Program-made: the position numbers and the translations under genes
Shown here: in pieces, positions 95 through 4,940 of the stretch
Layout of the letters: the number at the start of each line of letters is the position of its first letter
Position numbering within the stretch: position 1 is the first letter of the stretch
Notes under the pieces: model-generated
The model's input: only the letters and a program-made list of their open reading frames with translations
Database searches by the model: none
What the model was told of the DNA's origin: nothing
DNA from: a virus
Virus record (IMG/VR): IMGVR_UViG_3300032282_002974
Location: 1-22,111 of that record
Strand: one strand, 5' to 3'
Length of the DNA stretch: 22,111 nt

Positions 95-123
95 GGAGAG
101 GGTAGAAATGCCCTCTCCTTTTT
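95..123 (+). terminator. Rho-independent terminator, rightward
   Basis: A perfect 8-bp stem GGAGAGGG (95-102) / CCCTCTCC (111-118) encloses the loop TAGAAATG and is followed by five T (119-123). It closes the transcript of the partial gene at 1-65. The T-tract overlaps the TAA stop (122-124 on the minus strand) of the convergent 742-aa gene. On the minus strand no T-run follows the stem, so it should terminate well only rightward. Confidence 0.9.
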
Positions 124-2350
124 AGTATCCGTGATTAGAGTAAACAGCACCAATCGGTGAAAGGTTGTTTAGTCTTGGTTCAAGTTTTGCATCTGCATAA
201 GCTTTACGAACAGATGGTGCTACAGGAGGATGTGATGCGTTAACTCCTAATGGTGCTTGATCGATTGAAACACCTTGTTTCATTTTCATTGAGTTTACTG
301 TATGTTGTTGCTCATCTTTTAAATGATGTTCTTCTATCTGTTGATTTCTAGTAGCAACTTCATTCTGAACCGGTTGTTGCCAGGATTGTTGTCCAACATC
401 TGCGGCAGAAACTTTATTGTGTGGAACGATACTTTCCGGACCCTTCTCTCCCATCAAAACTTTTGGACCATTACCATCTACCGGATTAGCTAGATATGGC
501 TTATTGATTGTTCCACCTTCTGCCATAGGAATTATTTGTTCTGGTTCAACATCACCAATTTTTAAATCTTGTGATGTATATGGTGGTGCTGTGCCTGTAT
601 CAGAAGTTTGTTGTTGCGTATTAATAAGAGATGCTGTTTGCACTGAATCTTGTTGATCTGGTGATAATCCTTGTGCAACAAATGTTGTTGTATTTGTTTG
701 TTCATCTTTTACGGCAGTCATTCGGCTCGTATAATTACCGTTGTCATCGACTTTGCCATAAATTTGTTGTGCAAGTTTTGCTTTTGTTTCTGGAGATCCT
801 AATGCTACATTTTCGGGTATACCATATGTCTGCATCATTTCCTTATCCCAACCAGTTTCCCAGTTATAACCGGCTGCACCGTTAGGATGTGTTATATCTC
901 CGTGCATCAAATCAAATTTAGTTTCACCAGACTTAAATCCTATTCCTGGTGTAATTGTTGTTGAATCAGGAAAATAATATGCTTGTGCAAGAGCAGCAGC
1001 AGAGTGAAGCTTTGCATAAAGTGAAGCAGCTTGCCCTGGTGTTCCTACTTGCCCCTCATATGGTTTATTGAAGTTTGTTAATTGTTCGCCTGTTTTACTA
1101 TCAACAATAACAAAGTCCATGGCACCACCTTTGCCTGTTCCAGGTTGTTCGCCATGATTGCGTGTTGACCCTGAGTGTCTAACACCGGATGATTCACCAA
1201 ATACTTCTACATGATATCCAGGATTATCTAATTCAAATTGTTGAATACCTTCTGAATAGCTTTTAAGTATTACAGGATCAACATCACCTAATTCTGCACC
1301 TCTAGGATTTCTACCTTGAAGATAACCTAATGGATCATCAATAGGTTTAACTTTTCTATCTTGTTCTGATAAACCAGCAGCAATATTCTCGCCGTATTGT
1401 TTGGAAGCTATCGTTGCTTCTGATTCTCCAGGCTGATCAGATTCAACAGATCCTATTTTAGGAGTTATTGTTCCATCAGCAGAGGCAACTTGCTGTTGTT
1501 GTTTTAGATTTTCAGCAATCTTCTCAGCCGAATACGTTGCATATGGTCCAGGTTCTACATTAGGATCTTTTGCATAAACATTTCCACCAACATCATTATA
1601 TCCCTGACTTTGAGCAAGTCTATCGAAAGTTTTACCTCTGCCTTCGCCCTCAAGATAATAACTTGCACGATAAGCATCTGCTCCATTTGTAGGATCAGGT
1701 ACTGCACCCGAGGCAACTTCACGAATACGCTGACGAATCATTTCTGCTTCTTCTTTAGTGGCTTTTCTATAGCCTGCATATTGTCCTGGCGCTCTTGCGA
1801 CCTCATGTAAATTTCCAGATGGACCCCAGTCTTTAGTGCCAAGTCGATTAAACAGATTATTAACAACACCATCTAAGCTTCTTGAATCACTTAATCTCGC
1901 TTCACCTGCAATAGTATTGATAACATCATCTGATAGATCAGCTTCATTTAATTGATAAACTGGACGATATGTGCCTTGTTTGCCTGGTGCAACAGGTGTT
2001 TTTGTTGGTTGTTCTGATGCAGATTTTGTTTTTCCTATCTCTGCCGTTGTTGTTTTAGGAATAGATGAAAGATACGGCGTAACTGCTGAACTTTTGTTTA
2101 GATTTTTTAAATCTGTAGGAGAAGCTGCCATAGCAGTTTTAGCTTTAACACCAAAATAAGACTCTTGTCCGGCATTAGTTGCTAATGCTTGTTTAAAATA
2201 ATTAGGAAATAATGCGGCTCTTTGTCCAGGCGTCAACTCTCTTGCAATCATATCCATAACGCTTTGATTGCCTTGAAGTGCTTGTCTGGATGCAAATGGT
2301 ATTGTTGCTATATCTCTATAACTAACTGTTTGTAAATTTGGATTATCCAT
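122..2350 (-). CDS. Virion-associated protein with two peptidoglycan-hydrolase-like domains and tape-measure-like C-terminus
   Basis: 742 aa. Residues ~141-265 resemble SleB/CwlJ-type cell-wall hydrolases: INTIAGEAR with Glu150 as the likely catalytic acid, then an NR pair at 168-169 and GQYAGY near 190. Residues ~355-500 resemble an M15-type zinc D,D-peptidase, with candidate ligands His399 (TRNHG), Asp412 (GGAMDF) and His484 (DLMHGDI). Residues ~609-643 (MAEGG... VLMGEKGPESIVPHN) match the short motif seen near the C-terminus of many tail tape-measure and tail-lysin proteins. No signal peptide or membrane segment is seen. The ATG overlaps the stop of the 67-aa ORF (TAATG), so translation is probably coupled. 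Inferred role: a tail-carried protein that opens the cell wall during infection. Its place directly after the gp26-like pair could also make it the tape measure, but it lacks a long coiled coil. The domain calls are by eye and no homology search was possible. Confidence 0.7.
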   Translation of the reverse strand: MDNPNLQTVSYRDIATIPFASRQALQGNQSVMDMIARELTPGQRAALFPNYFKQALATNAGQESYFGVKAKTAMAASPTDLKNLNKSSAVTPYLSSIPKTTTAEIGKTKSASEQPTKTPVAPGKQGTYRPVYQLNEADLSDDVINTIAGEARLSDSRSLDGVVNNLFNRLGTKDWGPSGNLHEVARAPGQYAGYRKATKEEAEMIRQRIREVASGAVPDPTNGADAYRASYYLEGEGRGKTFDRLAQSQGYNDVGGNVYAKDPNVEPGPYATYSAEKIAENLKQQQQVASADGTITPKIGSVESDQPGESEATIASKQYGENIAAGLSEQDRKVKPIDDPLGYLQGRNPRGAELGDVDPVILKSYSEGIQQFELDNPGYHVEVFGESSGVRHSGSTRNHGEQPGTGKGGAMDFVIVDSKTGEQLTNFNKPYEGQVGTPGQAASLYAKLHSAAALAQAYYFPDSTTITPGIGFKSGETKFDLMHGDITHPNGAAGYNWETGWDKEMMQTYGIPENVALGSPETKAKLAQQIYGKVDDNGNYTSRMTAVKDEQTNTTTFVAQGLSPDQQDSVQTASLINTQQQTSDTGTAPPYTSQDLKIGDVEPEQIIPMAEGGTINKPYLANPVDGNGPKVLMGEKGPESIVPHNKVSAADVGQQSWQQPVQNEVATRNQQIEEHHLKDEQQHTVNSMKMKQGVSIDQAPLGVNASHPPVAPSVRKAYADAKLEPRLNNLSPIGAVYSNHGY

Positions 2351-2553
2351 TATCTTCTATTCTGTCTTCTTTGAAGTGCATTCTGTTCTTTTATCTTTTC
2401 GTTTTGCTCTTGAATATGTGCTTTTAATAAATCAATATAAATGAATCTTTCCCATGGCATCATATTTTCCAAGTCGCTTAGTGAATACTTATGAAATTGC
2501 ATTAAGTTGAAGTTCGTAGTATAATAATTTTTTAGATTATCATAGCCGAACAT
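2350..2553 (-). CDS. 67-aa tail-assembly ORF, probably the frameshift extension of the gp26-like gene
   Basis: 67 aa, helical and rich in Gln, Asn and Lys at the end, with the core motif MMPWERFIYIDLLKAHI. Its ATG overlaps the preceding stop as TAATG, and no Shine-Dalgarno precedes it; the upstream bases are a T-run. A -1 slip on that run leads directly into this frame (TAC TTA ATG). It is therefore probably made mainly as a C-terminal extension of the 241-aa protein, as lambda T is of G, although coupled reinitiation at the ATG is possible. Position and size suggest a small hub or tape-measure assembly chaperone like the T domain; T4 gp51 occupies a similar genomic place but is much longer. 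Function is inferred from context only. Confidence 0.75.
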   Translation of the reverse strand: MFGYDNLKNYYTTNFNLMQFHKYSLSDLENMMPWERFIYIDLLKAHIQEQNEKIKEQNALQRRQNRR

Positions 2554-3278
2554 TAAGTAAAAAAACTTGTGAAGTCTCCTGTCTTAATGTTGTGGTTATG
2601 TCCACATTTTGGACATTTTTGTTTAATGTCAATTTCAAATGACGGAAAATTGTAAATCCATTCTTCAAGTTTTGCCAATTGTGCATTTGTTAAACTGTCA
2701 ATAAACCTTGAAAAGTCTTCAGGCGCATAATCTTTTGTTGTATAAACATTATCTTTATCATAAACAAATTCAATAGAAGCGCAGATTAGATCAAACTTTT
2801 TATCTACAATATTTTCATCACCCATTATTCTTTTCATCTCAGAATATTTTGGATATTTCATCTTAACGCCAATTTGATTAGTCAGTTCTATCTTGCTTTC
2901 CAATATTTTATTTTTTTTAATTTTTGTTTTTGTTAAATCAACTTCTGCTGGAAATACTTGCCCACACTTTTGACCATCAACAAGCCTATTGCATGTAAGA
3001 TTAATCTCAACATTTTCACCAATAGACTTTGATCTTAACATGATAAAAAGATAATCAATATCAAAAAATGGTAGTTCATCAATCTTAACATCTTTTGATA
3101 TGCAACAATTTTCAATGATTTGTATTGTTGTATTAATTACTTCCAATTCTTCTTTTGTTTGTGCGGCTATAAGAAGAAGTTTTTCTTCTTTTACCAGAAA
3201 AGGTCTGAACTTGGCTGCTTTACCTGTAGATGGTATTTTCACTTCAAAAGTTGGTACCGCAATTGTAGGTAAACTCAT
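2553..3278 (-). CDS. 26: gp26-like baseplate hub / tail assembly protein with Cys-rich zinc motif
   Basis: 241 aa, similar in length and layout to T4 gp26 (208 aa), which is needed for baseplate-hub assembly. Recognisable features are the N-terminal block LPTIAVPTFEVKIPSTGK, the FRPFLVKEEKLLLIA segment, and two cysteine pairs: Cys96/Cys105 (LTCNRLVDGQKCG) and Cys222/Cys225 (KCPKCGHNHN, with nearby His228 and His230). Together these look like a split zinc-binding site. The gene has a clear SD (TTGGAGATT) upstream of its ATG. It ends with codons AGT TTT TTT ACT TAA, a slippery run just before the stop. It lies between the tube-fold gene and the 67-aa ORF. The gp26 family assignment is fairly secure; the proposed tape-measure-chaperone role is an inference from gene order and the frameshift signal. 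Confidence 0.8.
   Translation of the reverse strand: MSLPTIAVPTFEVKIPSTGKAAKFRPFLVKEEKLLLIAAQTKEELEVINTTIQIIENCCISKDVKIDELPFFDIDYLFIMLRSKSIGENVEINLTCNRLVDGQKCGQVFPAEVDLTKTKIKKNKILESKIELTNQIGVKMKYPKYSEMKRIMGDENIVDKKFDLICASIEFVYDKDNVYTTKDYAPEDFSRFIDSLTNAQLAKLEEWIYNFPSFEIDIKQKCPKCGHNHNIKTGDFTSFFT
2559..2565 (-). promoter_or_regulatory. Candidate -1 programmed ribosomal frameshift site T_TTT_TTT
   Basis: The plus strand has seven A; the minus mRNA reads AG[U UUU UUU] AC UUA AUG in the frame of the gp26-like gene (Ser238-Phe239-Phe240). The heptamer is correctly phased (X_XXY_YYZ) for tandem -1 slippage. After the slip, reading continues UAC UUA AUG into the 67-aa ORF, giving a 309-aa fusion (240 + 2 + 67). 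The zero-frame stop is only one codon past the run, and the downstream ORF lacks its own ribosome binding site. I have not identified a stimulatory pseudoknot or upstream SD element. Confidence 0.6.
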
Positions 3279-3298: not shown

Positions 3299-3991
3299 TT
3301 AATTAGTGCCAGTTCCTGGTGTATAAAGTCTAGGTGTAATTTGTTTTCCTGCATCGGTATCTGCACCTATTACAGGCTTAAATGGCTTCAATGGTTGAGC
3401 ATCCATTGTTTCTCTGTACCATTTGTTAAATGTAAATGTTACTTGAAGTCTATGAAAATTGTCATCCGCCCAGGTAACAGGTTGTGCTGCAACTTCTAAT
3501 GGATATGCTTTTTGAAATGTAAATTTGTATTTTGCGAATGATCCTGAATCAGAACTAGAATCAAATTCACTTAATTGATATATTTCAATTGTAGCCGCAT
3601 AATCATCTTTGTAAGAAAAATCATATGTATTGGTTGGATTAATATATTCCATCCAATCGTCAAAAAACTTTCTTTCCGCAAAATCATTTCTACACAGAAA
3701 GATCAAATTCAAGTCTTGATAATTTGTCTGTGTGGGCATTTTAAAGTTTGGTCCATAATATCTAACATCGGTAACAACCAACTGTCTTGTAGGAAACTCT
3801 GCTGATTCACACAAGTACGGTAAATCTCTCATTACACCAGAATTACCATTAAATAACGTTCCTGGATTACCCACAATTCTAACTAAAAATCTTGCGGAAC
3901 GTGCTAAACCACCGTATGCCGAAGATACATTTCGAACTGTATTTAAATTTATACTTTGACTTTCAGGTGAATTTTTAATATTATTTGCCAT
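3299..3991 (-). CDS. Tail-tube-fold protein: tube initiator (gp54-like) or tail tube (gp19-like)
   Basis: 230 aa. The core (residues ~33-195) has the signatures of T4-type tube proteins: ARFLVRIVG, then RDLPYLCESAEFPTRQL, YYGPNFKMPT, the LNLIFLCRNDFAERKFFDDWM block, FSYKDDYAATIEIYQL, and the closing TWADDNFHRLQVTFTFNKWY strand pair. A Pro/Thr-rich tail follows from ~197. T4 gp19 (163 aa) and the tube-binding part of gp54 (320 aa) share this fold. The location among hub genes rather than beside a sheath gene favours a gp54-like initiator, but the length is also compatible with a tube subunit. The start is 4 nt downstream of the preceding stop, with a weak SD (AAGAGA) inside that gene's end. 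The fold is confident; the choice between gp54 and gp19 is not. Confidence 0.75.
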   Translation of the reverse strand: MANNIKNSPESQSINLNTVRNVSSAYGGLARSARFLVRIVGNPGTLFNGNSGVMRDLPYLCESAEFPTRQLVVTDVRYYGPNFKMPTQTNYQDLNLIFLCRNDFAERKFFDDWMEYINPTNTYDFSYKDDYAATIEIYQLSEFDSSSDSGSFAKYKFTFQKAYPLEVAAQPVTWADDNFHRLQVTFTFNKWYRETMDAQPLKPFKPVIGADTDAGKQITPRLYTPGTGTN

Positions 3992-4493: not shown

Positions 4494-4940
4494 CTATTTA
4501 TTGTTAATTCCTAAGTCATCCTCAGTAATTAGCTTAAATTCCCATCCTCTATCTAAACAATAACCATTAGCCGCTTCCCATTTAGCTTGATTCTTACCCC
4601 AGGTAGCTACCTCAGTCAGGTATCTTTGAGTTATTCTTCTCTGTTTTTTTGGTTCTCTTGTCTGAGCTTTAGGTTTTACCTCTAAAAGCATCGACTTAAT
4701 CTTTCCGTCTTTTGCTTTGGCTTTGACAAAGAAATCTGGAAAATATCTATGGATACGGTTGTCCACGGGCGATAGATATGGAATGACAATTTCCTCACTA
4801 CTCCACTCCAGCACATTTGGATTTTCGTCTAACTGCTTCATAACTCTCAATTCCCACAAAGACCGATAGATTACATTGGTAGGGTCACCTCTGTACTTTC
4901 TTGGGTTCTTGGGGCTAAATTTTCCTTTATAGGTTTTCAT
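4494..4940 (-). CDS. 4: Head completion nuclease gp4-like
   Basis: 148 aa, nearly the length of T4 gp4 (about 150 aa) and strongly similar from memory: YKGKFSPKNPRKYRGDP, VIYRSLWELRVMKQLDENPNV, SSEEIVIPYLSPVDN, HRYFPDFFV, LLEVKPKAQT and NQAKWEAANGYCLDRGWEF. The E..PYL...D..HRYFPDF....LLEVKPK order fits a TnsA/PD-(D/E)xK-type nuclease core. T4 gp4 finishes the DNA-filled head before tail joining. This is the first gene of the leftward operon, and its ATG abuts the rightward late promoter. The MKTYKGKF start matches the family N-terminus, but no SD is visible upstream (AT-rich TATATATTTAT), so initiation may be weak. Confidence 0.92.
   Translation of the reverse strand: MKTYKGKFSPKNPRKYRGDPTNVIYRSLWELRVMKQLDENPNVLEWSSEEIVIPYLSPVDNRIHRYFPDFFVKAKAKDGKIKSMLLEVKPKAQTREPKKQRRITQRYLTEVATWGKNQAKWEAANGYCLDRGWEFKLITEDDLGINNK

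Follow-up and report, generated by a model that had tools for sequence, protein, structure and literature searches.

Probable programmed -1 frameshifting at a conserved slip site of a gp26-like tail assembly chaperone gene, a distant case of the T4-like chaperone frameshift

A probable single chaperone gene with a short and a long product

The window analyzed here, an AT-rich virus contig of 22,111 nt from an IMG/VR record, encodes on its minus strand a gp26-like protein and, immediately downstream, a 67-aa open reading frame (ORF) that together very probably make up one tail assembly chaperone gene, with a short and a long product generated by programmed -1 frameshifting. Judging from the sequence, some ribosomes almost certainly slip by -1 at seven consecutive T's in the window phage, which is of the T4 type. 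Under the proposed mechanism, most ribosomes would halt at the TAA codon and release a 241-aa short form, and a fraction would slip by -1, with two Phe tRNAs on T_TTT_TTT, to yield a 309-aa long form carrying an extra C-terminal domain. On the model of lambda gpG/gpGT, coating of the tape-measure protein would fall to the part shared by the two forms, and recruitment of tail-tube subunits to the domain unique to the long form. Sequence and comparison establish the site and its conservation, as well as the conserved -1 domain with its homology to the end of gp51; that the shift takes place in the window phage, how efficient it is, and that the products act as chaperones are inferred. The elements of the locus are the following.

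2553-3278, minus strand: gp26-like gene encoding 241 aa, the putative short tail assembly chaperone (TAC-N); PF12322 and phrog_150
2559-2565, minus strand: slippery heptamer T_TTT_TTT, one codon ahead of the zero-frame stop; from the sequence
2553-2555, minus strand: TAA stop of the zero frame, which forms TAATG with the start of the 67-aa ORF; from the sequence
2350-2553, minus strand: 67-aa ORF, starting at the ATG of TAATG; from the sequence
2350-2559, minus strand: -1 extension of 69 codons (YL followed by the 67-aa ORF) plus stop, putative C-terminal domain of the long form (TAC-C); phrog_634

The gp26-like gene ends, on the minus strand, with ACA AGT TTT TTT ACT TAA, so the preliminary description, which had reported the end AGT TTT TTT ACT TAA with a phased T_TTT_TTT, agrees with the sequence in every detail. 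After a -1 slip, reading continues as TAC TTA ATG TTC..., that is, the -1 frame is open straight into the 67-aa ORF, as had been described, and the product comprises 240 + 69 = 309 aa; the coordinates, frame and lengths (241 aa and 309 aa) given there are all correct. The 241-aa protein is matched by the Pfam family PF12322 (T4_baseplate, E 1.6e-56) and by phrog_150 of the PHROGs (baseplate hub, E 1e-60). The 67-aa ORF is itself matched by phrog_634, the gp51 family, annotated in PHROGs as 'baseplate hub assembly catalyst' (E 1.6e-24).

Conservation of the slip site

Comparison of homologous loci revealed T_TTT_TTY, located 0-3 codons ahead of the gp26 stop, in all 87 loci of the window type, which consist of 79 usable viral-contig relatives, seven annotated phage relatives and the window itself; the window member shows 35-48% identity to the relatives found. 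Of the 15 annotated phage loci examined at the outset, eight fall outside the 87 and lack T_TTT_TTY at the end of the gene. At 87/87 loci, the Phe pair begins with TTT and is preceded by T; its other codon reads TTC in 63 loci and TTT in the remaining 24. The codon ahead of the Phe pair varies (Ser AGT or TCT, Asp GAT, Asn AAT, Gly GGT, Ala GCT, Arg CGT) and always ends in T. Thus, the positions that need T for the slip are fixed and the free one varies, and these constraints are exactly those of a double-tRNA -1 slip site. Given the codon use of each gene, the probability of the observed NNT-TTT is about 1e-10 for 15 representatives with less than 40% mutual identity and about 1e-21 for 41 representatives with less than 60% identity, showing that in the window-type relatives the slip site is kept beyond codon bias. 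Whether gp26 homologues keep both the T run and the -1 ORF that overlaps the gene end had been named beforehand as the check on the proposed frameshift; both are kept at each of the 87 loci.

These observations bear on two explanations that do not involve ribosome slippage. The juxtaposition of a T run with two overlapping genes could be due to chance in AT-rich DNA, given that in-frame T_TTT_TTY occurs three times among the 6920 codons of the window, and finding one of them close to the end of a gene is, by itself, only mildly unexpected in the window (a few percent by our estimate for about 20 genes); however, this explanation is refuted by the conservation in 87/87 loci, with proteins diverged to less than 40% identity, and its probability is practically negligible. 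Alternatively, RNA polymerase might add or drop a U on the T7 run, so that a subset of the mRNAs would encode the fusion. Runs of this length can cause slippage in AT-rich DNA, and the window has T7, as do its four nearest relatives, but 63 of the 87 loci carry T6C in that phase, which is standard as a double-tRNA slip site but short as a run for polymerase slippage; we consider the transcriptional route exceedingly improbable.

A conserved domain in the -1 frame

The same small domain, with the consensus ...LxHxSLxNYYKxNFALMQxHKYSLxELENMIPxERxIY..., is encoded in the -1 frame of 87/87 loci, and the similarity starts directly after the slip site. In principle, this domain could be produced with no shift, by termination at TAA and restart at the overlapping ATG, in which case the 67-aa protein would be a separate product. 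The TAATG of the window, where the -1 ATG is well placed, is compatible with such a restart, and the same overlap is found in several close relatives. However, 26 of the 87 loci contain no ATG, GTG or TTG within the first nine -1 codons (in one, L083, the -1 frame contains no start codon at all, and in another, L020, none until codon 55), and a Shine-Dalgarno (SD) sequence at a usable distance precedes none of the 47 early -1 ATGs, compared with 60 of the 86 gp26 starts. Independent initiation, therefore, cannot be the general route to the -1 domain. Restart also leaves the fixed T_TTT_TTY unexplained and is at odds with the organization of T4-type gp51, where the domain is fused to a gp26-like body. 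We regard termination and restart as a very unlikely explanation of the locus. In the window itself, the SD-like run nearest to the ATG of the 67-aa ORF, AGGAG at 2576-2580, lies 22 nt ahead, which by its spacing is too far to serve this ATG, consistent with the earlier remark that the ATG has no SD. Within the frameshifting mechanism favored here, reinitiation at the TAATG of the window could add some free 67-aa protein.

Labels of the -1 domain in phage records differ: some show a separate gene that starts late, others have 'baseplate hub assembly catalyst', gp51, a hypothetical protein or no label, and none of the phage records examined contains a joined CDS for the gp26 homologue and the -1 domain. 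The present analysis corrects this widespread annotation habit, in that the domain called a separate gene most likely forms the C-terminal end of a chaperone made by frameshifting.

Relationship with T4-type gp26 and gp51 and with known frameshifts

The gp51 protein of the T4-type phage RB10 (249 aa) is a paralogue of gp26 over residues 1-201 (PF12322, E 4e-55), and the C-terminal stretch that follows these residues matches the 67-aa ORF (4e-4 by BLASTP and 7e-5 by profile comparison). In the KVP40 record, the annotators had already noted C-terminal similarity to gp51 for a small ORF of that phage. The -1 frame of RB10 gp26 lacks the chaperone domain, with gene 25 located there instead. In RB10, genes 26 and 51 are separate and divergently transcribed, whereas the window has one gene with a frameshift; the correspondence is that gp26 equals the short form, and gp51 combines a gp26-like body with the C-terminal domain. 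On sequence grounds, the T4-type arrangement is best read as the short and long forms being encoded by two genes, and the window-type arrangement as one gene with a frameshift. The loci collected here provide a large comparative data set for tracing how T4-type phages switched between frameshifting and gene duplication.

The locus resembles lambda gpG/gpGT in the location of the proposed slip just ahead of the short-form stop, in the presence of a C-terminal domain in the long form and in the adjacent tail-tube-type genes; the difference lies in the slip site, which is T_TTT_TTT in the window and G_GGA_AAG in lambda. Ranked by Foldseek probability, the top PDB match to the AlphaFold2 model of the 241-aa protein (pLDDT 89) is 2ob9, a tail assembly chaperone of HK97 (probability 0.72, with a non-significant E of 0.55 and a TM-score of 0.40 of the target). 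In the viral library, the model matches gp26-type proteins best, and a search of the gp26 profile against PDB sequences produced chance matches only. The proposal of the preliminary description that the pair of gp26-like gene and 67-aa ORF corresponds to G/GT is, accordingly, backed by the gp26/gp51 relationship and, weakly, by the fold.

A 2022 study by Vladimirov, Gautam and Davidson (Virology 566:9-15, pmid 34826709) reportedly found frameshifting to be conserved in several T4-like groups, with genes 26 and 51 kept apart in T4 itself. The preliminary description knew of no such shift in T4-type gp26 genes, and in this one point it fails, as sites of this kind in T4-type phages were already reported in that 2022 study. 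The window is a distant further case of this known T4-like chaperone frameshift, and no difference of principle was found. A 2016 review on frameshifting describes the G-T type shift as conserved among long-tailed phages 'except T4' (PMC5009743). A paper that cites Vladimirov et al. describes the gp26/gp51 families as having poly-T slippery sites and a product of each length, short and long (PMC12846349), and another paper citing the same work mentions T4-like phages with separate short and long genes (PMC10885494). The former paper also presents a conserved -1 shift at GTTTTT for the chaperone of Vandenendeviridae/Andersonviridae, exemplified by the contractile-tail phage Adele. Like the shift proposed for the window type, this is a -1 shift in a chaperone gene, here of different phage families.

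Possible stimulatory elements

Two elements that flank the heptamer of the window are possible stimulators of the shift but not defining parts of the site.

2576-2580, minus strand: SD-like AGGAG, possible stimulator, 10 nt upstream of the heptamer; from the sequence
2512-2551, minus strand: predicted hairpin, possible stimulator, beginning 7 nt downstream of the heptamer; from RNA folding

The hairpin has a predicted energy of -10.3 kcal/mol (z -5.0), with 1 of 200 shuffled sequences folding as well, and we take the combination of internal SD, heptamer and hairpin in the window to resemble the dnaX arrangement. Neither the AGGAG spacing nor the hairpin of the window is kept in its four nearest relatives, and the family-wide enrichment of both kinds of element is uneven. 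SD-like runs are found upstream of the heptamer in most relatives, mostly at 7-10 nt, and among the upstream E-G codons, GAG is enriched over GAA (40:27, against a background of 469:1502). We rejected the internal SD as a conserved element: it is common, yet absent at the right spacing from the four nearest relatives of the window. The 48-nt region after the heptamer has z < -2 in 34% of the loci, compared with 9% of the controls, and the enrichment is weak after thinning to 41 representatives (p 0.034). Conserved downstream structure was likewise dismissed as a defining element, the effect being weak after thinning and the registers differing between clades. The eight loci of one clade, A2 (L016, L048, L053, L057, L060, L062, L066 and L079), share a hairpin of 11 bp immediately downstream of the slip site, in which a few of the changes are compensatory.

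Variants among other relatives

Outside the window type, the loci of Ackermannviridae (L089, L091, L094, L095 and L098-L115), as well as L086, retain the -1 domain, with A_ATT_TTC, G_GTT_TTC or A_CTT_TTY at the corresponding site. Only the A-site T_TTY is conserved in these loci, and P-site pairing after the slip would be poor. In the Listeria phage LIS04 and two relatives (L092, L116 and L117), the chaperone C-domain is read in +1 relative to the gp26 homologue, and a conserved TTT TTT nnn nCC nGA TTC, possibly the site of a +1 (or -2) shift, is located near the stop of the gp26 homologue, ahead of the +1 C-domain. Tentatively, all these loci can be viewed as one homologous chaperone family in which the long form would be made in four ways, namely, slippage on T_TTT_TTY (window type), slippage with only the A-site T_TTY conserved (Ackermannviridae), a +1 frame (LIS04 type) and gene duplication (T4 type), with the window adding a dnaX-like three-part signal; we consider this picture possible rather than probable.

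Neighboring genes

The chaperone locus is flanked by two genes on the same strand.

3299-3991, minus strand: tail tube or gp54-like protein, 230 aa, upstream neighbor; Phage_TTP_2 (E 5e-8) and phrog_45, tail tube (E 1e-31)
122-2350, minus strand: 742-aa gene, downstream neighbor, overlapping the stop of the -1 ORF (TAATG); candidate tape-measure protein or tail hydrolase

The 742-aa protein has no match in Pfam, PHROGs or PDB. Genes at the same position in two relatives (L005 and L007) partially match tape-measure families, and those in several other relatives match endolysin or transglycosylase families. A tape-measure identity of the 742-aa candidate is plausible. On inspection by eye, this protein contains stretches resembling cell-wall hydrolases, and its C-terminal MGEKGPESIVP motif is reminiscent of tape-measure proteins. 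Elsewhere in the window, the gp4-like head closure protein (4494-4940, minus strand) matches PF08722, the family of TnsA-like endonuclease N-terminal domains (E 1e-24).
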